A DNA stretch of 64,000 nt from NCBI RefSeq assembly GCF_947498515.1, contig NZ_CANMKO010000001.1, positions 558,001-622,000 of the forward strand. Direction: 5' to 3'. Positions 1-11,434 of this stretch are shown here, one piece after another. Position 1 is the first letter of the stretch, and every line of letters begins with the position of its first letter. The notes below the pieces were generated by a model. The model was not told the origin of the DNA. It worked only from the letters and a program-made list of their open reading frames with translations, and searched no databases. This DNA is from an uncultured Pelagimonas sp. GTDB lineage: Bacteria; Pseudomonadota; Alphaproteobacteria; Rhodobacterales; Rhodobacteraceae. A program made the position numbers and the translations under genes.

Positions 1-1710
1 GCGCGCGCCGGTCCGCGCCACCGGTGGGCGATGCGCAACAGCCAGCATTTTGGCTTTGCCATCGCTATGAAAGAACTGTCCATCCGCAAAGAAGCGGCCA
101 CCGTTTTTGTGATCACTAATTGGCCAACGGGTGGGCGTTAAGGCGTCAAATGCCTCATTGCTGATCGATGCGAGACCGGAGATATCAAAGTCACGGCCCA
201 ACTCGCCCGCGATACCGGAAAGCGCCGCGTATTCACGAAACACATCGGCTTCGCTGTTATAGTCAAAGGCATCAGACCATCCCATACGACGGCCAACTTC
301 GGCCAATTGCGCCCAATCGGGGCGGGTGTGGCCGGGGGCGGGCAAGGCAGCGCGTTGGCGCGAAATGGTGCGATCTGTGTTGGTCACCGTGCCGGATTTT
401 TCGGCCCAGGCGGTGGCGGGGAGGACAACATCGGCCAATCGCGCCGTGTCGGTTAGACCGGTCACATCGGAAACCACGACAAAGTCACAGCCTTTAATTG
501 CGGCGCGCACGGCGCTGGCGTCAGGCATGGAAACGGCGGGGTTGGTGTGGATAATCCACAGCGCCTTGATCCGACCGTCACCCACGGCGCGGAACATGTC
601 GACGGCTTTCAACCCCGCCGTGTCCGGCATGCAAGGGGACTGCCAGAACCCTTGCACAGCGGCGCGGTGTTCCGCGCTTTCGATATCCAAATGGCAAGCC
701 AGCATATTGGCCAAACCGCCAACTTCGCGCCCGCCCATAGCATTGGGTTGCCCAGTGACCGACAATGGCCCGCAACCCGGTTTGCCAATCCGCCCGGTGG
801 CGAGGTGGCAATTCAAGATGGCATTGACCTTATCCGCACCTGCGCTGGATTGGTTCACGCCTTGGCTAAAGATCGTGACGGTCTTTTCGGTGCAAAGGAA
901 GAGTTTGATGAACTCTTTGACCTTGATCGGATCAAGTCCGGTGACCGAAAGGTCGCTGTTGAACGCAGTGTTGAGCGCATCGTCAAAGCCATTCACATTG
1001 GCAAGAAATTCGGCGTCAAGCGCCCCTTGTTCGTAAAGCTGCGTCAGAAGGTAGTTGAACAGGGCGACGTCGCTTCCAGCATTCAGAGGCAGGTGCATAT
1101 CGGCCCCGTCACAGGTGGCGGTACGGCGCGGGTCGATCACCACAATCTTGGTGCCGCGCTCGGCTTTGGCGGCGATCAGACGTTGGTACAACACCGGATG
1201 ACACCACGCGAGGTTGGAACCAACCAGAACGACCAAATCGGCCTCTTCTATGTCTTCGTAGGTTTGTGGCACGGTGTCGGTGCCAAAGGCGCGCTTGTGC
1301 CCGGCCACGGTCGAGGCCATGCAAAGCCTTGAATTCGTGTCGACATTTGCGGTGCCCATATAGCCTTTGATCAGCTTGTTGGCGACGTAATAGTCTTCGG
1401 TCAGCAATTGGCCCGATAGGTAAAAGGCGACGCTGTCGGGCCCGTGGTCGCGGATACTGGCGGCGAATTTATCCGCCACCAACTGCAATGCATCATCCCA
1501 ATCGCTCTCCTGCCCATTGACCTGTGGGGCCATGAGGCGCCCGCCAAGACCAACAGTTTCGCCCAAGGCCGATCCTTTGGAGCAGAGCCGACCATAGTTG
1601 GCCGGATGATCCGGATCGCCTTTGACGTCTAGCCCGGTGTCCGTATGGGTCAGTAAGACCCCGCAACCGGTGCCACAATAGGGGCAGGTGGAGCGAATGG
1701 GTTTGGTCAT
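1..1710 (-). CDS. nasA: Assimilatory nitrate reductase catalytic subunit, 3' end cut by window edge
   Basis: Cytoplasmic molybdenum bis-MGD enzyme that reduces nitrate to nitrite. The reading frame is open for 570 codons from the ATG at 1710 to the window edge, so the C-terminal part lies outside. The N-terminus carries the [4Fe-4S] cysteine pattern CPYCGTGC (about residues 9-16), and the fourth cysteine lies in LCSKG (about residue 43). It is followed by the molybdopterin oxidoreductase body (GSNLAWCHP, TGRIGKPGCGP, MGGREVGGLANM) and the start of the dinucleotide-binding region. There is no Tat signal, which fits an assimilatory rather than periplasmic enzyme. The start codon overlaps the nirD stop (ATGA, 1707-1710), so it is the last gene seen in the nas operon. 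Assigning it to NasA rather than formate dehydrogenase rests on this context and the N-terminal sequence. Confidence 0.93.
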   Translation of the reverse strand, partial: MTKPIRSTCPYCGTGCGVLLTHTDTGLDVKGDPDHPANYGRLCSKGSALGETVGLGGRLMAPQVNGQESDWDDALQLVADKFAASIRDHGPDSVAFYLSGQLLTEDYYVANKLIKGYMGTANVDTNSRLCMASTVAGHKRAFGTDTVPQTYEDIEEADLVVLVGSNLAWCHPVLYQRLIAAKAERGTKIVVIDPRRTATCDGADMHLPLNAGSDVALFNYLLTQLYEQGALDAEFLANVNGFDDALNTAFNSDLSVTGLDPIKVKEFIKLFLCTEKTVTIFSQGVNQSSAGADKVNAILNCHLATGRIGKPGCGPLSVTGQPNAMGGREVGGLANMLACHLDIESAEHRAAVQGFWQSPCMPDTAGLKAVDMFRAVGDGRIKALWIIHTNPAVSMPDASAVRAAIKGCDFVVVSDVTGLTDTARLADVVLPATAWAEKSGTVTNTDRTISRQRAALPAPGHTRPDWAQLAEVGRRMGWSDAFDYNSEADVFREYAALSGIAGELGRDFDISGLASISNEAFDALTPTRWPISDHKNGGRFFADGQFFHSDGKAKMLAVAHRPPVARTGAR

Positions 1711-2039
1711 GCGGCGCTCCTGTTTCCGACGGCCGATCCATCAAGCAAGATGCGGCCCGCGTCGACTTTGACCGGGAAGGTGTCGACACGACCTTCGTCC
1801 GCGCCTTGGGCTTCTCCGGTGTTGAGGTCAAACACCCAGTTGTGCAGCGGGCAGGTGACCTTGTTGTCATGCACGATGCCCTCAGACAGGGGGCCGCCCT
1901 TGTGCGGGCAGCGGTCCGAAATGGCGCGCACTTCGGTGTCGTCAGTGCGGAATAACGCCACGCAGCCAACCGGGGTTTTCACCACGCGCGCGCCGCGCAG
2001 AGGGATGTCGTTGATGTCTCCAATATCGATCCAGCTCAT
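1707..2039 (-). CDS. nirD: Nitrite reductase small subunit NirD, Rieske type
   Basis: A 110-residue small subunit of the assimilatory NAD(P)H nitrite reductase, working with NirB in the cytoplasm. It is a single Rieske-fold domain. The cluster ligands are all present: Cys44 and His46 in CPHKGGPL, and Cys63 and His66 in CPLHNW. Some NirD proteins, such as the enterobacterial one, have lost these ligands, so this copy probably binds a [2Fe-2S] cluster and takes part in electron transfer. Its start overlaps the nirB stop (2036-2039) and its stop overlaps the nasA start, so the three are translationally coupled. The ATG at 2039 is preferred to an upstream in-frame start because that extension lies inside nirB and has no domain match. 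Confidence 0.93.
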   Translation of the reverse strand: MSWIDIGDINDIPLRGARVVKTPVGCVALFRTDDTEVRAISDRCPHKGGPLSEGIVHDNKVTCPLHNWVFDLNTGEAQGADEGRVDTFPVKVDAGRILLDGSAVGNRSAA

Positions 2040-4486
2040 TCTGCGGCCTCCAAAGTCAAATCTGCAAGGGGTTGATAAGTCTCGGCTTTGTCCTTGGCGT
2101 GTTCGGCCCAAGGATCGGCGCGATAGACACTTTGCGAAATCTCAAACCGTTCGGCCAAGGCTTTGCGGTTGTCGAGGTCATCGACGATCTGTTCCTTGAC
2201 CCAATCGAGGCCCACCTTGTCGACCCATTTGAAAATCCGGTCGAGGTATTTGGCGTTCTCGCGATAGATTTGCGTCATCGCGCTGATCACCTCCATCGCC
2301 TCGTCTTCGGTGGCGACTTTGCACAGAACTTCGGTGCCCTTGATCTCCATCCCGGCCGCGCCGGCGACGTGGATTTCATAGCCCGAGTCGACACAGATCA
2401 CGCCGATGTCTTTGCAGGTCGCTTCGGCGCAGTTGCGCGGGCAACCCGACACGGCAAGCTTGAGCTTGTGCGGTGTCCAAGACCCCCACAGGTGCTTTTC
2501 AAGCTTGATACCAAGCCCGGTGCTATCCTGTGTGCCAAAGCGGCAATGATCCGTGCCAACACAGGTTTTTACCGTGCGCAGCCCCTTGGAATAAGCATGG
2601 CCCGAGACCATCCCGGCCTGATTGAGGTCATACCAAATCGCAGGCAGGTCAGAGCCTTTAACGCCGAGCAAATCGATCCGCTGGCCGCCGGTGACTTTGA
2701 CGGTTGGCACATCGTATTTGTCGGCCGCATCGGCAATGGCGCGTAGCTCATCCGGGGTGGTGATCCCGCCCCACATGCGTGGAACCACGCTATAGGTGCC
2801 GTCTTTTTGGATGTTGGCGTGTTTGCGTTCGTTAACGAAACGCGATTGCGGATCATCGGCATATTCCAGTGGCCAATCGGCCAGTAGGTAATAGTTGATC
2901 GCCGGACGACAGACGTGACAGCCATTGCGGGTTTTCCATCCCAATTCTTGCCAAACTGCGTCTTGCGATTTCAACTCTTGCACTTTGATCAAGCGGCGCA
3001 CGTCTTCGTGCGAGAAATCGGTACATCCACACACGGTTTGGGCCGCGGGCATGACAAAATCGTCTCCCAATGTGACGGCCAAAACCTGTTCGACCAATCC
3101 GGTGCAGGTCCCACAAGAGGCGGACGCTTTGGTTGTGGCTTTGATTGCACCTAGGTCGGTTGCGCCGTCATTGATCGCCGCGACGATGTCGCCTTTGCAT
3201 ACGCCGTTGCACCCGCAGATTTCAGCATCATCCGGCAAGGCTGCAACGGCTGAGAGCGGGTCCGAGGGGGCCCCTCCCTGATAGGCGGGGCCAAAGATCA
3301 GCGTGTCGCGCATGTCGGAGACATCGGTGCCGTCCTTGAGCAAGCCATAGAACCAGCTGCCATCGGCGGTATCGCCATACATGACCGCGCCGATGATCTT
3401 GTTGTCCTGCAAAACCAAACGCTTATAGACGCCGCGCGCCGGGTCGCGGAACACGATATCCTCTCGGTCGTCCCCTTCGGCAAAGTCACCCGCGCTAAAG
3501 AGGTCACAGCCGGTGACCTTGAGCTTGGTCGAGACTTCGCGATTGACGAAAGCGGCCTCGTCACCCAGCAAAACCTTGGCCAGAACCTTGGCCTGATCAA
3601 AGATCGGGGCGACTAGGCCAAAGATATCGCCGTTGTGTTCGACACATTCACCGATGGCAAAGATGTTTTCGTCCGAGGTCAGCAATTGGTCATCTACATG
3701 GATGCCGCGCCCACAGGCCAGCCCGACCTCCTGCGCCAGACCGATATTAGGGCGGATGCCGACTGCCATGACGAGCTTGTCACAGGGCAGTTCAGTACCA
3801 TCGTCAAGCATCAGCGCTTTTACCTTGCCATTCTCGCCGATGATCTCTTTTGAGTTGGCCGAGCATTTCACGGTGATGCCCTTGTCGACCAATGCCTTGC
3901 GCAGCAAATAGCCCGCCGGTTCATCCAACTGGCGCTCCATCAGGTGCCCCATCAGATGCACCACGGTCACGTCCACACCGCGCGCCGCCATGCCTGCTGC
4001 GGCTTCAAGCCCCAGCAAACCACCGCCAATCACCACTGCCTTTTGGCCAAGGGTCAGGGACATCATGTCATGGGTGTCTTCGAGATCGCGATAGGCAATC
4101 ACGCCGTCCAGATCATGGCCCGGCATCGGGATGATGAATGGGTTCGATCCGGTGGCAAAGACCAGCTTGTCATAGGCCACTTCAGAGCCGTCATCGCCGC
4201 GCACGATCTTGGCGGCGCGGTCAACCTCGGTGACTTTGACGCCAAATTTGGTGTCGACGCCTTTTTCTTCGTACCAATCGGCGTCATGGGTGACGATATC
4301 GTCATAGGTCTTTTCACCGGACAAAACCGGTGAAAGCATAATGCGGTTATAGGTCCCGCGCGGTTCGGCGTTGAACAGGGTGACATCCCAATCGGCGCTT
4401 TCCCCATCTTTCTGGGCGTCGGTCAGGTGGTCCAACACACGGCCAGCGGCCATGCCTGCTCCAATGATAACAAGGCGTTGGGTCAT
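2036..4486 (-). CDS. nirB: Assimilatory nitrite reductase large subunit NirB
   Basis: An 816-residue NAD(P)H-dependent nitrite reductase that takes nitrite to ammonium in the cytoplasm. Domains in order: a pyridine nucleotide-disulfide oxidoreductase FAD/NAD unit (Rossmann glycines at 9-14 and GGGLLGLEAA near 154-163); a first BFD-like [2Fe-2S] domain (Cys424, 426, 458, 461); a second BFD-like domain (Cys486, 488, 523, 526); then the ferredoxin-type half domain and the siroheme/[4Fe-4S] domain with Cys642, 648, 682 and 686 (motifs TCVGTDHC and GCPRNC). All expected cofactor cysteines are present and the length is normal. It lies 46 bp after the globin gene on the same strand and overlaps nirD. 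Confidence 0.96.
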   Translation of the reverse strand: MTQRLVIIGAGMAAGRVLDHLTDAQKDGESADWDVTLFNAEPRGTYNRIMLSPVLSGEKTYDDIVTHDADWYEEKGVDTKFGVKVTEVDRAAKIVRGDDGSEVAYDKLVFATGSNPFIIPMPGHDLDGVIAYRDLEDTHDMMSLTLGQKAVVIGGGLLGLEAAAGMAARGVDVTVVHLMGHLMERQLDEPAGYLLRKALVDKGITVKCSANSKEIIGENGKVKALMLDDGTELPCDKLVMAVGIRPNIGLAQEVGLACGRGIHVDDQLLTSDENIFAIGECVEHNGDIFGLVAPIFDQAKVLAKVLLGDEAAFVNREVSTKLKVTGCDLFSAGDFAEGDDREDIVFRDPARGVYKRLVLQDNKIIGAVMYGDTADGSWFYGLLKDGTDVSDMRDTLIFGPAYQGGAPSDPLSAVAALPDDAEICGCNGVCKGDIVAAINDGATDLGAIKATTKASASCGTCTGLVEQVLAVTLGDDFVMPAAQTVCGCTDFSHEDVRRLIKVQELKSQDAVWQELGWKTRNGCHVCRPAINYYLLADWPLEYADDPQSRFVNERKHANIQKDGTYSVVPRMWGGITTPDELRAIADAADKYDVPTVKVTGGQRIDLLGVKGSDLPAIWYDLNQAGMVSGHAYSKGLRTVKTCVGTDHCRFGTQDSTGLGIKLEKHLWGSWTPHKLKLAVSGCPRNCAEATCKDIGVICVDSGYEIHVAGAAGMEIKGTEVLCKVATEDEAMEVISAMTQIYRENAKYLDRIFKWVDKVGLDWVKEQIVDDLDNRKALAERFEISQSVYRADPWAEHAKDKAETYQPLADLTLEAAE

Positions 4487-4532: not shown

Positions 4533-4958
4533 TTAGCTTGCTAGTGAGTAGGCATGCCCAACCATCAGATCGCAGATGCTTTGCAAGGCGAGATCCCAGG
4601 CTTGCACTTCCGGTTCCGACAATCCGAAGGGGGTCATCTGAACGATCGTGTCGAATAGAGCGACGCGCACCACTTCGTAGTGCTCGGGAGTGGCCCCGTA
4701 GCCCACATGGCGTTCGGCCATTTCGAGAATGGGTTGCAAAATCACCGCCAGATTGGGCAAGTTTTGCACCACCAATTCCAATGTCTCCTCCAGCTTGCGC
4801 GACTGGTCGCAAATGTGATCGGGAAAGAAGGCCCGAACTGCCGGCGCACGTTCGAAGAGGATGAAGTAAAACTCGTCTGCAAAGTCGTTGTGTGCCGCTT
4901 TGAGACGGTTGAAACTGCGGGTGACATGCCAGATTTGTTCTTGAGTAAACTCGCTCAT
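4533..4958 (-). CDS. Single-domain globin (Vitreoscilla/flavohaemoglobin type) in the nas operon
   Basis: A 141-residue haem protein of the bacterial globin family, with no FAD/NAD reductase domain attached. The CD1 phenylalanine lies in RAFFPDH (Phe44/45). The proximal histidine is His84 in the AERHVGYG segment, which aligns with the KHCQAGV segment of Vitreoscilla haemoglobin. It sits between the nitrate transporter ATPase and nirB on the same strand, and a purine-rich AAGGAAAAG ribosome site lies just upstream of its ATG. Related globins bind O2 or NO. From the position I infer a role in removing NO formed as a side product of nitrite reduction, or in delivering a ligand to the reductase. 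The reductant partner is not visible; NirB is one possibility. The function is inferred and the family is clear. Confidence 0.85.
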   Translation of the reverse strand: MSEFTQEQIWHVTRSFNRLKAAHNDFADEFYFILFERAPAVRAFFPDHICDQSRKLEETLELVVQNLPNLAVILQPILEMAERHVGYGATPEHYEVVRVALFDTIVQMTPFGLSEPEVQAWDLALQSICDLMVGHAYSLAS

Positions 4959-5041: not shown

Positions 5042-6748
5042 TCACTCCGCTGCAATTGTGGTTGCAGGTTTCGCCTTTGGTTTGGGCTTGGCCCCGTGTT
5101 CGTATTCTTCAAGGAAATCGAGCACTTCCTGGCGGTAAGTGTAGTAGTCTGGATGTTCCAAAAGCGCCTTGCGGGTGCGCGGGCGCGGCAGGTCGACATT
5201 GGTGATTTTACCGATTGTCGCCTGTGGGCCGTTGGTCATCATCACCACACGATCCGCCAAAAGGATGGCCTCATCCACGTCATGGGTGACGCAGATTGCG
5301 GTGACTTTGGTGCGCGACCAGACTTCCATCAGAACCTCTTGCAATTCCCAGCGCGTGAGGCTGTCGAGCATGCCGAAAGGTTCATCAAGCAAGAGCAATT
5401 TCGGTGATAGGGCAAAGGCGCGGGCGATGCCGACCCGTTGCTTCATACCGTTGGACATGGAATTGGCCGGACGATCCATCGCATCGGCCAAACCAACCCG
5501 TTCAAGGTAGTATTCCACCACGTCTTGACGTTCTGCTTGGCTAGCCTTGGGATAGACCTTGTCAACGCCAATGGCACAGTTTTCGCGCGCGCTTAGCCAC
5601 GGGAAGAGGTTGGGCGATTGAAAGACAACGGCGCGTTCGGGGTCCGCCCCTTCGACGTGACGACCGTCAAGTTTGATCGCGCCCTTGGAGATGTCATTGA
5701 GGCCGGCAGCCATGGTCAAAACCGTGGATTTCCCGCAACCAGAGTGGCCAATCAGGGAGATGAATTCACCGCGATTGATCTTGAGATTGAAATCCTCGAC
5801 CACGGTCAAGGGGCCCTTGGGGGTGGGATAGATTTTGTGGAGCTGCGAGAAATCGAGAAAGCGTTCGTCGATCAAACCCTTTTGCGCTTCGACCACCGCC
5901 GAAGGCACGCCGTGGATTGGGGTGACATCGGGGAGCGTCTTGGTGCCCTCAACCTTGCCCTTGATCCCGACATCCATCAGGTAGTTGGTGACCTTGGCGC
6001 GCAGAGCTTTGAAACCCTCATCGTTGTTCATCTCGGTTCGATCGCGCGGACGCGGGATGTCGACCTTGAACTCATCCCCTAAGGTGCCGTCGGGGTTCAG
6101 AGCGATGATGCGATCGCCGACCAAAATGGCTTCGTCCACATCATTGGTGATCAAAACACAGGTCTTTTTGCTTTCGTCCCAGATTTTGACGATCTCATCG
6201 GCGAGATTGGCGCGGGTTAGGGCGTCAAGCGCCGACAGCGGTTCGTCAAGCAACAGCATTTCAGGGTCCATCGCCAAAGCGCGGGCGACGTTCACCCGTT
6301 GGCGCATACCGCCCGACAATTCGGCGGGGCGGCGGCTTGCCGCGTGGGACAAGCCAACCATCTTGATGTAATGGGCGACCTTTTCATCCTTTTCCGCGGT
6401 TGGCATCTTTGGAAAGACCGAGTCCAGCGCGAGGCGAATGTTACCGGCCACGGTGAGCCACGGCATCAAAGAGTAGCTTTGAAAGATCACGCCGCGCTCT
6501 GGGCTTGGCTCTTTGATGGGCTTGCCTTTGAAGGTGACGTCGCCGGTGCTTGGTTGTTCCAACCCGGCCATTAGATTGACCAAAGTGGTTTTGCCGGTGC
6601 CCGAAAACCCGAGGATGACAAGGAATTCGCCGTCTTGGATGTCGAGATTGATGTCGTTGAGTACTTTGGTGAAATGCGTGCCTTCACCAAAGCCTTTGTT
6701 GACGTGTTCGAACTTGAGAATGCTCTCTTGCGTGGTCATGGGGATCAC
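5042..6748 (-). CDS. nrtC: Nitrate/nitrite ABC transporter, two fused ATPase domains (NrtC/NrtD-like)
   Basis: A 568-residue protein with two complete ABC ATPase domains in tandem, driving nitrate/nitrite import with NrtA and NrtB. Domain 1: Walker [10 protein letters not shown] at 47-55, signature LSGGMRQ near 144-150, Walker B MLLLDEP at 164-170, and Asn202 where the switch histidine is expected (TNDVDEA). Domain 2: Walker [10 protein letters not shown] at 334-342, a variant signature MSNGMKQ at 431-437, Walker B LLLLDEP at 451-457, and a normal switch His489. Cyanobacterial NrtC carries a NrtA-like C-terminal domain and NrtD is separate; here both ATPases are fused and the NrtA-like domain is absent. 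The start may be the GTG at 6748, overlapping the nrtB stop, or the ATG at 6739. Confidence 0.93.
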
Positions 6749-7830
6749 CGGTTGTTCGAGAAGGTAAAGAGCGATTGCAGGGCGAACATCACACGATCAA
6801 GCAGGAAGCCGATGATGCCGATGGTCAAAACCGCAACAATGATCTTGGCGAGGGATTGCGAGGAGCCATTCTGGAACTCATCCCAGACGAATTTGCCAAG
6901 GCCGGGGTTTTGAGCCAGCATTTCCGCGGCAATCAGAACCATCCAACCCACACCCAAGGACAGACGCAGTCCGGTGAAGATCAGCGGCAGAGCTGAGGGG
7001 AGAACCAGCTTGGTGATCTTGGTCCAAGTGTTCATTTTCAGAACTTTGGAAACCGAGACGAGGTCTTTGTCGATGCTTGCAACGCCAAGGGCGGTGTTGA
7101 TCAGTGTTGGCCAGAGCGAGCAGAGCGTCACGGTGATCGCCGAGACGAGGAAGGATTTGGAGAACAACCCGTCGTTGGTGGCATACATGGCCGAGACGAC
7201 CATGGTCACGATGGGGAGCCATGCGAGGGGCGAGACCGGCTTGAAGATTTGTACAAGCGGGTTGATCGCGGCGTTGGCGCTTGGCGACAGACCGGCAAGA
7301 ATGCCCAGTGGAATTGCGATGGCCGAAGCGATCAGGAAACCAAAGAAGACGGTTTTGATCGAAGTCCAGATCTGTTCGTAATAGCTTGGCGATCCGGTAT
7401 AGGGGATGTCTTTGACTTTTTCAGGTTTGCCTTGGGCGATGAAGCGTTCGTTGCGGGTTGCGACGCGCTCTTCGTGTTTGGCTTTCTTTTCGGCCTTGGC
7501 AATGGCGTCCTGATGCAGGTTGACGGTTTCGGTCCAGACGGCGGCGGGGCCGGGGATGGCACCGAGGGAGGTTTGAACTTGGGGCGCAAGAGTGGCCCAG
7601 AGCAGCAGGAACCCGGTGATCGCCAGCAAAGGCACGCCGAGAAGACGCCAGATTTCTTTGTATTGCGCGCGCGGGTTGTCACCGGCGGCGGCTTTGAGGA
7701 TCGGCGTGATCCAGGCCAGTCCAAGGACCTGAAACCATTTGTCGGCGGCATTGATGCGGGTGAAAAGACGGGCGCGGCGGGCTTCGCGCTCGGCGTCGAT
7801 GTTGAGGCTGTCTGGGTCGATGGCAGTCAT
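6745..7830 (-). CDS. nrtB: Nitrate ABC transporter permease NrtB
   Basis: A 361-residue inner-membrane permease of the NrtB/SsuC class. It has a cytoplasmic-looking N-terminal 60 residues, a first membrane segment around 63-82, a charged stretch rich in Lys and Glu at about 108-142, then the binding-protein-dependent permease domain (about 155-350). The EAA-type loop, which docks to the ATPase, lies near [19 protein letters not shown]. NrtB proteins commonly lack such a long charged insert, so this one may form an extra loop. The start ATG at 7830 is the only one that keeps the N-terminal extension seen in frame. The stop overlaps the first codon of the ATPase gene. Confidence 0.93.
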
Positions 7831-7933: not shown

Positions 7934-9301
7934 TTAGCCTTCGATGTCGGATCCGACGACGCGTTGATCCGCTTTTAGGCCAATCGGCAAGCTGTCGAGA
8001 TAAGCGTTCGGGGCTTTGCCGTCATAGGCGATGCCGTCGATGATATCCTCGGATGGGGTCGGGGCTTTGTAGCCATCGCTGTCCCATGGGAAGTCCGCTT
8101 CGCTTACGAGACCTTCTTCGACCAGAAGCTTGGCAGCCTCCAGATAGATTTCAGGCTTGTAAACCGACTTGGCCACTTCGTCGTACCAGCTATCGGATTT
8201 CGCCTCAGGGATCTGACCCCAACGACGCATCTGTGTCAGGTACCAGATGGCATCCGAATAGAACGGGTAGGTTGCGTTGTAGCGGAAGAACACATTGAAA
8301 TCAGGCACTTCACGCTTGTCGCCTTTTTCGTACTCAAACGTGCCGGTCATCGACGCGGCGATCACTTCGGGATCGGCACCCACATAATCCGGGCGGCTCA
8401 GAATCTCGACAGCGGCTTCGCGGTTGGCGTTATCGTTTTCATCCAACCACTGGGCGGCGCGGATCAGAGCCTTGACCACGGCCAATGTGGTGTTTGGGTT
8501 CTCTTCGGCGAATTCAGCAGTGATGCCGAACACTTTTTCCGGGTTGTTCTTCCACAGTTCATAATCGGTGATGACCGGAACGCCGATGCCTTTGAATACG
8601 GCCTGTTGGTTCCAAGGCTCACCCACGCAATAGCCGTCGATGGTGCCAGCTTCGAGGGTCGCGGGCATCTGGGGCGGAGGGGTTACAGAGAGGAATGCCT
8701 CGGCGTTGATCTGGCCGGTGACATTTTCGGGGCTGTAGTAACCGGGGTTAATGCCACCCGCGGCCAACCAGTAGCGCAATTCGTAGTTATGGGTGGACAC
8801 CGGGAAAACCATGCCCATGTTAAAGGGCTTGCCCTTAGCCTGATAGCTTTCGATCACTGGCTTGAGGTGGCTTGCCGAAATCGGATGCTGAATTTTGCCA
8901 TCGGCGTCGGTGGGCAGATCAGGTTTGATCATTTCCCAAACGTCGTTCGACAGCGTGATGCCATTGCCGTTCAGGTCCATCGAGAAAGGCGTAATAATGT
9001 GGGCCTCGGTGCCATACCCGATGGTCGCTGCCAAAGGTTGACCGGCCAGCATATGCGCGCCGTCCAGTGTTCCGTCGATCACACCATCCAAAAGCACTTT
9101 CCAGTTGGCTTGCGCTTCGAGGGTGACGAACAGGCCTTCGTCGTCAAAAAATCCTTGCTCATAAGCGACGGCCAGTGGGGCCATGTCGGTTAGTTTGATG
9201 AAGCCAAAAGTCAGCTCATCCTTCTCCAACTCGAGCATCTCAGCAAAAGCGGGGGTGGTGAGGGCAGTTGTGGCTGCCAGTGCGCAGAACAGCTTTTTCA
9301 T
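7934..9301 (-). CDS. nrtA: Nitrate/nitrite ABC transporter substrate-binding protein NrtA
   Basis: A 455-residue periplasmic binding protein of the NrtA/CmpA family that captures nitrate or nitrite. The chosen ATG at 9301 gives a typical Sec signal peptide (basic MKK, hydrophobic core, cleavage after AFA near residue 20) and has AAAGGA about 10 nt upstream. An in-frame start 63 bp further upstream would bury the signal peptide. The mature part opens with the family motif [15 protein letters not shown] and contains [12 protein letters not shown], typical of the oxyanion-binding fold. It is the first gene behind the leader RNA and is followed by an intercistronic stem-loop before nrtB. It shares its fold with NasS upstream, which lacks a signal peptide. 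Confidence 0.94.
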
Positions 9302-9342: not shown

Positions 9343-9400
9343 AAACAAAGAAAGCCGCAGACAAGTGCCAAGGGAGGATGGCATCCTGTCGAGCGGCTTT
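9343..9400 (-). terminator. Leader terminator ahead of nrtA (target of antitermination)
   Basis: On the minus strand AAAGCCGC (9400-9393) pairs with GCGGCTTT (9358-9351). Between them, GACA and TGCCA pair with TGGCA and TGTC, leaving an 8-nt loop (TCCTCCCT) and small bulges. The long stem is followed directly by CTTTGTTT. This has the form of an intrinsic terminator inside the 239-nt leader, about 42 nt before the nrtA start, so it should stop transcription unless it is disarmed. Confidence 0.85.
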
Positions 9401-9407
9401 GCTCTTG

Positions 9408-9466
9408 TTCTCCAGGGGCCATCGGTGCCTCTGGTGAATTCTGATTAGACAGCGTCGTTGCTATCT
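9408..9466 (-). ncRNA. ANTAR-type two-hairpin leader RNA recognised by NasT
   Basis: Two hairpins stand just upstream of the leader terminator. P1 (9466-9447): AGATAGC, hexaloop AACGAC, GCTGTCT, a seven-pair stem with one G-U pair. P2 (9438-9408): TTC and CCAG arms pairing with CTGG and GAA around an inner GGC/GCC stem, with loop ACCGAT plus one G. Both loops have A at position 1 and G at position 4, the known signature of RNAs bound by ANTAR regulators. The linker is 8 nt. NasT, encoded just upstream, carries an ANTAR domain, so antitermination of nrtA-nasA by NasT is the natural reading. The promoter itself was not identified. Confidence 0.85.
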
Positions 9467-9540
9467 TGATTCATTTATGGGCTTCATCTTGCTGCGCTTG
9501 CAAAGGAGTTCGTTAAAAATGCCGCATTGCAGCGTGCGGG

Positions 9541-10743
9541 TCAGCTAAGTTGCCTATTTTTTAATCTCGTCGTTTCTGATGGGTCAAAAATTGAGCCGTC
9601 AAAGAAGCGATCTGGGGGCAGGGTCAGGCTACCTGATTCCGATGCAACCGAAGTCCAAGCCGCATTTGCGCCTTCGAGCTTGGAAGAGGCACCGGGTAAA
9701 TCCGGGGTGATTCCACGCAAAGCCGCGCGGTAGATATCTGATCTAAACACTGTGCCTGCGGCTTTAGTGGCGTGGGTTTGGTCAAGACCAACACGAAGGG
9801 CAAGTTGCATCGCGATCCACTGGGCCTGGCTGCGCCAAGGGAAGTTCGCAGCTCCGGTGTGAAAGTCTAAAAACTCGTCCGCATGTCTCTGGACCCCATT
9901 GGGGGTGACGGTGAACGTTCCGGACAAGGCGCGGTCGATAATCTCGGTTGGACGATCCAAATAGGCTTTGCGCGCCAAAAGCTCGGCGGTCAAAAGCCGT
10001 GATCCCGGATCGGCCAACCATTGGCAGGCGCGCCAGATCGCTCGGATAAGACGCTGGGCGAGGTCGGTTTCGGTGTCGGCCCAATTGCGCCGCACCGCCA
10101 GAACCTTTTCCGGCGCGCGTTGCCAGATCGCCGAGCCGGGGAGTAAGAGCGAGCCTTGGCTTTGATCAACCGAAATCGACCCCCATGGCTCTCCGACGCA
10201 AAAGGCATCGACCTCTTTGGCGGCAAGCGCATCTGCCATCAGGGCCGGGGGCACGGTTTTGATTTCGACATGGTCCGGCGCGGGTAACCCGAGCGCATTG
10301 AGCCAATAGAACAACAGCTGGGCATGCATCGAAAACGGAAAGGGCACCCCGATTTTGAGCGGTGTGGTGCGCCCGGCGGTGAGGGCGTGCCCGGCCTTTG
10401 TCGCGTCGGTGAAATCAAAATCATGCCCCTGATCGACGAGATGGTCGGCCAGATCTTTGCCAACCCCAATGACATTGCCATTGATCGATGTGACCATGAT
10501 CGCATCTAGTGCCATGCCGGCATTGCCAAGTCCAAGCGCGGCGGCGACCGGCACGGGCGCAAGCATATGGGCGGCGTCGACCTGACCAAAGCTCAGCATA
10601 TCACGCAGGCTTGACCAAGACGGCGCGCGTTTGAGATCAAGCGTCAGCCCCTCCTGAGAGGCAAAGCCCATTTCCTGCGCCACGATAAGCGGCGCGGCGT
10701 CGACAAGCGGGATGAACCCGAGCGAAAGCGTGGTGTTTCTCAT
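9541..10743 (-). CDS. nasS: Nitrate/nitrite sensor NasS
   Basis: A 400-residue NrtA-like protein that starts directly with the fold (MRNTTLSLGFIPLVDAAPL) and has no signal peptide, so it stays in the cytoplasm. It keeps the family motif VDAFCVGEPWGS. In the NasS/NasT systems studied in Azotobacter and Paracoccus, NasS binds NasT without nitrate and releases it when nitrate or nitrite binds. The start overlaps the nasT stop (ATGA, 10740-10743), as expected for a translationally coupled pair that forms a complex. The downstream leader RNA and nrtA agree with this role. The alternative of a second transport binding protein is unlikely because export signals are absent. Confidence 0.93.
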   Translation of the reverse strand: MRNTTLSLGFIPLVDAAPLIVAQEMGFASQEGLTLDLKRAPSWSSLRDMLSFGQVDAAHMLAPVPVAAALGLGNAGMALDAIMVTSINGNVIGVGKDLADHLVDQGHDFDFTDATKAGHALTAGRTTPLKIGVPFPFSMHAQLLFYWLNALGLPAPDHVEIKTVPPALMADALAAKEVDAFCVGEPWGSISVDQSQGSLLLPGSAIWQRAPEKVLAVRRNWADTETDLAQRLIRAIWRACQWLADPGSRLLTAELLARKAYLDRPTEIIDRALSGTFTVTPNGVQRHADEFLDFHTGAANFPWRSQAQWIAMQLALRVGLDQTHATKAAGTVFRSDIYRAALRGITPDLPGASSKLEGANAAWTSVASESGSLTLPPDRFFDGSIFDPSETTRLKNRQLS

Positions 10744-11324
10744 GACAACAACCCCGCTGCGGTCACAAGCGCCTCGGCGACATCGGCCATGCGCCTGTTT
10801 TGATCCATGGCGGTTTTGCGGAGTAAGGCATAGGCCTCGTCTTCGGTGACGCCACGGGCTTTCATGATCATGCCCTTGGCGCGGTCGATGACTTTGCGTT
10901 CCTCTAAGGCGCGTTTTGTTTCGGCCAATTCCGCCCGCATCCTTTGAAAAAGGCGAAAGCGGGCGATGGCCGCTTCGAGCACCGGGGTAACGCGTTCGGG
11001 TTGCATGCCGCCAACCACATAGGCCGAGACCCCGGCCTCGATTGCGGCGGCGGATAGGCCCTCTTGGCTTTGGTCAACAAACATCGCAACGGCGCGGTCT
11101 TGGGGCCCGGAGGCCAGTGCCAGCTCTTCCAACATGTCGCGCGATGGGTTTTCGATGTCGATCAGAACCACGTCTGGATTGTGTTGGTGGATTTGCCGGG
11201 CAAGGCCGGTGGTTTCCGAAATAACACGAATATCATGATCGCCGGCGGCGCGCAGGCTGTCGATGATTTGTAAGGCGCGGTCACGGTCGGCTTCGACCAC
11301 TACGATTGAGAGCGTATTTGGCAT
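10740..11324 (-). CDS. nasT: Antitermination regulator NasT (receiver-like plus ANTAR domain)
   Basis: A 194-residue RNA-binding regulator. Residues 1-120 form a response-regulator receiver fold with Asp56 in VLIDIENP. Residues about 131-190 form the ANTAR helical bundle, including VIDRAKGMIMKARGVTEDEAYALLRKTA, here split as VIDRAKGMIM and ARGVTEDEAY. Regulation of NasT is known to be by sequestration by NasS rather than by a cognate kinase. Its RNA target can be seen 1.3 kb downstream at 9408-9466. It begins at the ATG at 11324 and is divergent from glpD, separated by about 205 bp that must hold both promoters. Confidence 0.94.
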   Translation of the reverse strand: MPNTLSIVVVEADRDRALQIIDSLRAAGDHDIRVISETTGLARQIHQHNPDVVLIDIENPSRDMLEELALASGPQDRAVAMFVDQSQEGLSAAAIEAGVSAYVVGGMQPERVTPVLEAAIARFRLFQRMRAELAETKRALEERKVIDRAKGMIMKARGVTEDEAYALLRKTAMDQNRRMADVAEALVTAAGLLS

Positions 11325-11434
11325 GAGGGATGAACACCGCGCCGGTGTTCGGATGTAAAGCTGCGTTGCGGCATTTTTAAGCGCCTTGTCGTTAATTGCT
11401 CAATTTTACAGCAAGTGGGTATTTTTTACGCATT

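Follow-up and report, generated by a model that had tools for sequence, protein, structure and literature searches.

A probable NasT-controlled attenuator with three hairpins in the nrtA leader of a Pelagimonas species

The closest described counterparts of the RNA element analyzed here are the dual-hexaloop leaders of the ANTAR proteins EutV (eut), NasR (nasF) and AmiR. These leaders carry hexaloops with A at loop position 1 and G at position 4 (A1/G4) on C:G closing pairs, and the last hairpin sits at the 5' base of a terminator with which it is mutually exclusive (PMC3369931, PMC7496416); the linker of the dual motif is described as 2-25 nt long (PMC8164766). How an ANTAR dimer uses the two hexaloops is debated, and the EutV structure shows that a single dimer is unable to bind the two simultaneously. 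In the NasS-NasT system of Paracoccus denitrificans, nasT and nasS immediately precede the nitrate operon, the intergenic leader (200-250 nt) contains hairpins, and NasT bound the leader RNA (PMC3795266, PMC5424462). Nitrate frees NasT from NasS, a dissociation shown for P. denitrificans only, and NasT then binds the leader RNA as an oligomer of ~130 kDa (PMC3795266). Furthermore, activity dropped severely when 3 bases were changed in the HI hairpin, which is located 137 bp upstream of nasA (PMC5424462). In Bradyrhizobium, NasT also acts through leader hairpins, with several proposed targets (nos, nap and narK-bjgb-flp-nasC), and a single-domain globin gene is located within the nitrate operon (PMC6759348).

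We analyzed the leader between nasS and nrtA in a stretch of 64,000 nucleotides from an uncultured Pelagimonas sp. (the window, from whose first letter all positions are counted). This leader and all genes concerned are located on the minus strand:

10740-11324, minus strand: nasT, 194-aa response-regulator-like protein with a C-terminal ANTAR RNA-binding domain (Pfam ANTAR, E 3.7e-23)
9541-10743, minus strand: nasS, 400-aa NrtA-like protein without evident signal peptide (Pfam NMT1_2, E 4.2e-66)
7934-9301, minus strand: nrtA, periplasmic nitrate-binding protein, first gene of the putatively controlled operon (NMT1_2, E 2.8e-95)
6745-7830, minus strand: nrtB, after nrtA
5042-6748, minus strand: nrtCD, after nrtB
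4533-4958, minus strand: 141-aa single-domain globin, between nrtCD and nirB and within the nitrate operon
2036-4486, minus strand: nirB, after the globin gene
1707-2111, minus strand: nirD, after nirB
1-1710, minus strand: molybdopterin nitrate reductase, gene truncated by the window edge

The genes nasT and nasS overlap by 4 bases and directly precede the leader, which confirms the placement given in an earlier sequence-only reading of this locus. A receiver-like plus ANTAR protein, NasT, is thus encoded beside a cytoplasmic NrtA-like protein, NasS, as in a NasS-NasT system. NasT aligns to EutV (6wsh/6ww6), NasR (4akk) and AmiR (1qo0), its receiver domain is degenerate and stays below the Pfam cut-off, and it is the sole ANTAR protein of the genome, since a whole-genome ANTAR search pointed to one place. 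By alignment, NasT also keeps the residues that contact G4 in EutV (E160, Y164, R142 and K149, numbering of PMC8934654). By analogy with NasS of P. denitrificans (PMC3795266), NasS is presumed to be the nitrate/nitrite sensor that holds NasT. The operon starts with the nrtABCD ABC nitrate transporter, whereas that of P. denitrificans starts with the NarK-type nasA. The globin, which has a counterpart in the Bradyrhizobium operon, could perhaps provide protection against nitric oxide.

The minus-strand leader folds far more stably than its shuffles (z = -4.8, 0/200), whereas the fold of the plus strand is weaker (z = -2.65). With this weaker fold and all genes concerned on the minus strand, plus-strand RNA was rejected as the relevant strand. 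An Rfam scan of the window gave no family match up to E = 5. When folded only as far as the terminator loop, the leader yields exactly three hairpins, P1, Pm and P3; folding the complete leader yields the terminator:

9447-9466, minus strand: P1, hexaloop hairpin AGAUAGC-AACGAC-GCUGUCU with 7 bp, loop at 9454-9459, putative first ANTAR site
9412-9434, minus strand: Pm, middle hairpin CCAGAGGC-ACCGAUG-GCCCCUGG with a 7-nt loop and G at position 4, either a degenerate ANTAR-like hairpin or a structured linker
9391-9404, minus strand: P3, GAGC-AAAGCC-GCUC, canonical A1/G4 hexaloop on a C:G closing pair, loop at 9395-9400, proposed antiterminator
9351-9400, minus strand: intrinsic terminator hairpin, 5' arm AAAGCCGC (the P3 loop plus 2 nt, GC), 3' arm GCGGCUUU
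9343-9353, minus strand: U-rich tail UUUCUUUGUUU, with C and G breaking up the U tract of this species; most relatives have a longer U run

We assign a probability of roughly 85% to the reading that this leader is a NasT-controlled attenuator consisting of P1, Pm, P3 and a terminator partly built from P3, which would switch the nrtA operon on when nitrate is available. An attenuator of the NasT/ANTAR kind in front of nrtA had been proposed from the sequence alone, and the proposal is well supported by comparative data: the only ANTAR protein is encoded next to the leader, the hexaloops carry A1/G4, the terminator covaries and the element co-occurs with nasT. The long terminator and its U-rich tail, which ends at 9343, were also correctly recognized. 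In contrast, the second ANTAR site had been placed in the ACCGAT hairpin, which is Pm; this assignment was wrong, and the likely antiterminator is P3, which had escaped notice because its bases are inside the terminator in the full fold.

To compare leaders, we looked for NasT in 121 relatives as well as in named genomes and extracted the leaders between nasS and nrtA. The resulting alignment contains 44 Rhodobacteraceae leaders with the same layout and a hexaloop hairpin that overlaps the terminator. Five of 50 nrtA-type leaders failed this P3 filter, one of them by the tail rule alone and one, L096, with G at loop position 1; the covariance model R1 nevertheless detected three of the five (L038, L045 and L096) at 31-42 bits, and leaders outside the model seed (L075, L086, L096, L038 and L045) scored 31-51 bits. 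A stricter automatic detector (hexaloop, terminator and TT tail) missed the window owing to the interrupted U tract, which also counts against the attenuator reading. A covariance search and a Rhodobacteraceae alignment were among the checks that the sequence-only reading had named. The window leader reaches 57.7 bits with R1 and the next match in the same genome 19.5 bits, and scores of at least 29.9 bits were found in 24 of the 121 relatives' genomes, all with a full-length nasT, and in 0 genomes without nasT. Hence the RNA co-occurs with the ANTAR protein, as in dual-hexaloop systems. Matches of 14-20 bits were considered as a second ANTAR target in the genome and rejected, as the best six are located within ORFs and lack the attenuator arrangement; the same applies to an exact P3-like 14-mer within a coding frame on contig 12. 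One strong target in this genome compares with several proposed in Bradyrhizobium (PMC6759348). As a side observation, the record JAHVJD010000003.1 (L066), titled Nocardioides marinus, contains a Rhodobacteraceae-type nasTS-nrt cluster with a 79% identical NasT and is probably mislabelled or contaminated.

P1 is a real hairpin, as had been claimed, with a clean stem and strong covariation: both sides change at 6/7 pairs. Its loop has G4 in 44/44 leaders, A1 in 42/44 and a C:G closing pair in 44/44, and this conservation counts as independent evidence because the loop sequence played no part in the selection of P1. P1-type hexaloops occur at the right place in 33 of 44 relatives, compared with 1.7 expected from dinucleotide shuffles.

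The predicted pairings make P3 and the terminator mutually exclusive, as they share the bases of AAAGCCGC, and these shared bases covary; in this respect P3 behaves like the last hairpin of a dual-hexaloop leader. The same overlap between P2 and terminator was found in the Siccibacter NasR leader, our positive control. Calculated stabilities are -4.0 kcal/mol for P3 and -28.8 kcal/mol for the terminator core, so termination would be the default and P3 would need a protein to prevail during synthesis of the 3' arm. The earlier remark that the second hairpin does not overlap the terminator holds for the ACCGAT hairpin but not for P3; the mechanistic oddity seen there is therefore resolved by the mutual exclusivity and gives way to the question why there are three hairpins.

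It could be argued that the conserved element is just an intrinsic terminator and that P3 arises incidentally from the conservation of its arm, since the terminator pairing is the strongest fold and the loop bases are shared between both structures. For the terminator, 92% of the alignment cells are paired with 31 double-change cells; for P1 and P3 together the values are 85.9% and 68, which 0/500 shuffles reach, while slid controls stay at or below 45% paired. As the P3 stem varies little (exact GAGCAAAGCCGCTC is present in 34/44 leaders by count from the alignment), the pairing of P3 itself rests on few compensatory changes. However, GAGC (columns 108-111) and UC (columns 120-121) are near-invariant, yet the terminator core does not use them or has them bulged out. 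In 6 leaders, column 114 (loop position 3) is G, C or U, each time with a matching change in the terminator 3' arm. ANTAR proteins are not known to read this position. Positions 1 and 4 are A and G throughout the 44 leaders, although the terminator would tolerate compensated changes; since only hairpins with A1/G4, a stem of 4 bp and a terminator passed the finder, this invariance is by selection of the set. Together, the invariant GAGC/UC and the covariation at position 3 indicate that one stretch is constrained by two distinct pairings, which is what a switch would require, and by this comparative evidence P3 is selected separately from the terminator. With the strong covariation of P1 and the co-occurrence of the element with nasT also speaking against it, a terminator on its own seems very improbable.

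The role of the middle hairpin is less clear-cut. The ACCGAT hairpin does exist (9434-9412) and contains ACCGAU, but it is no proper hexaloop: read as such, a single C-G closing pair is followed by a G/G mismatch, and in the stable form GGC/GCC closes a loop of 7 nt, ACCGAUG, with an internal A/C mismatch beneath. P1 and P3 thus have the 6-nt loop, A1, G4 and C:G closing pair of a dual hexaloop, whereas Pm does not. A dual motif made of P1 and the ACCGAT hairpin, with bound NasT blocking the terminator sterically or via RNA polymerase, would profit from a short linker of 8-12 nt, from the presence of both A1 and G4 in ACCGAU and from the conservation of Pm as a hairpin. The sequence-only reading had set its proposal against the loss of A1/G4 in close relatives, and this loss was found for the ACCGAT hairpin: the sister species Pelagimonas phthalicica has AACCTT at the Pm loop, and A1 and G4 occur together in 19 of 43 relatives only. 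As P3, by contrast, agrees with all known rules and shares bases with the terminator, we regard the P1-ACCGAT pair as unlikely.

Pm is present as a hairpin in 43 of 44 relatives (7.0 expected by chance), with loops of 5-8 nt. Since P1, P3 and the terminator covary or are near-invariant in the 44 leaders and Pm is found in all but one, this Rhodobacteraceae clade, as judged from the alignment, uses a three-hairpin leader of P1, Pm and P3 followed by the terminator. The P1-P3 linker is 42 nt in the window, with the third hairpin inside, and we call the leader a variant of the dual motif because this linker exceeds 2-25 nt; the 7 nt between Pm and P3 are within that range, but Pm lacks a hexaloop. 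Loop to loop, P1 and P3 are 43-59 nt apart in most Rhodobacteraceae relatives, compared with 24 nt in eutP. As 20 nt added to the linker abolished EutV antitermination (PMC8934654), the gap would need compaction. Pm might therefore be a mere structured linker that shortens the distance between two NasT sites, which is in line with its variable loop length, a free A1 and the non-ANTAR loop on the middle hairpin of L228, a leader from outside the Alphaproteobacteria. On the other hand, G4 is kept in 33/43 leaders (10.2 in permutations) and A1 together with G4 in 19/43 (3.8), values reached by 0/5000 permutations each, which ignore the kinship of the sequences. Moreover, all three hairpins are perfect A1/G4 hexaloops in Rhodobacter-like leaders (L087 and L089; L040 and L091 resemble them) and in L062 and L181, which belong to two further families. 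A pure linker is a possibility that we take seriously without favoring it; judged from the conserved G4, Pm is probably a weakened third NasT site.

Beyond this clade, only two hairpins, 18-26 nt apart, were found in other proteobacterial leaders (L059, L060, L177, L180, L224, L230 and the NasR leader L098), and a long-spaced pair with a middle hairpin in L174, L175 and L228. The Paracoccus leaders examined have two or three hexaloops without a U-tailed terminator overlapping the last one: P. denitrificans (L244, third loop GACGAU) and P. ferrooxidans (L245) carry three hairpins upstream of nasA and then a long hairpin without a U tract. Therefore, the mechanism cannot be transferred unchanged to every NasT leader. 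As the P. ferrooxidans leader has a hexaloop at -135, HI of P. denitrificans is probably one of the hexaloops, although the strains differ.

The intergenic region contains no sigma-70 consensus promoter and the window no sigma-54 pattern, whereas a sigma-54-like promoter (TGGCAC-N5-TTGCT type) is located just upstream in most examined leaders outside the Rhodobacteraceae, directly before the first ANTAR hairpin in L059, L060, L173, L174, L177, L179-L181, L212 and L228. One clade seems to have changed the promoter type and kept the RNA switch. Assuming 12 nt from the -12 element, transcription is predicted to start 2-4 nt upstream of P1 in four leaders of the three-hairpin or long-spaced kind, and where there are just two hairpins the predicted +1 precedes the first by 2-19 nt; this position just before the first hairpin is an independent line that suggests that P1 opens the transcript. 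Furthermore, a palindrome, GCnGCnnnGCnGC, occurs at 9521-9533 upstream of P1 and at 11360-11372 upstream of nasT, and upstream of P1 in 21/44 relatives (0.3 expected). It is possibly an NtrC-type operator that replaces the sigma-54 promoters of other families; the few further matches sampled across the genome are not flanked by nitrogen genes, which would have marked it as a nitrogen-regulon element.

For the preferred attenuator we propose the following course of events. Without nitrate, NasT would be held by NasS, P3 (~-4 kcal/mol) would exist only briefly until the terminator (~-29) captures the loop and 3' arm of P3, and transcription would stop before nrtA. With nitrate, freed NasT would first load at P1 on the emerging RNA and next clamp P3 as RNA polymerase exposes it, while Pm would keep P1 and P3 close; AAAGCCGC could then not pair with GCGGCUUU and the nitrate operon would be transcribed. 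Most likely, transcription continues solely when nitrate is present. It is also conceivable, and we put this forward tentatively, that a NasT oligomer takes the hairpins in turn, with loading at P1, hand-over at Pm and clamping at P3, and that such a relay is general in many alphaproteobacterial NasT leaders.

This kind of attenuator is known as such; what is new are the additional hairpin and the wide spacing of P1 and P3, which are outside the described dual motif. In the literature searched, mostly outside subscription journals, no description of a third ANTAR hairpin was found. Searches for dual motifs with linkers of up to 25 nt would mis-assign or miss the three-hairpin class, and a covariance model for the leaders of nitrate assimilation in Rhodobacteraceae is now at hand. 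Leaders with two hairpins occur naturally beside three-hairpin leaders in which the middle hairpin is either canonical or degenerate, and this series provides a test set for sequential hand-over. If the relay is true, such NasT leaders would represent a class of antiterminators of their own, separate from the two-site model of EutV and NasR.
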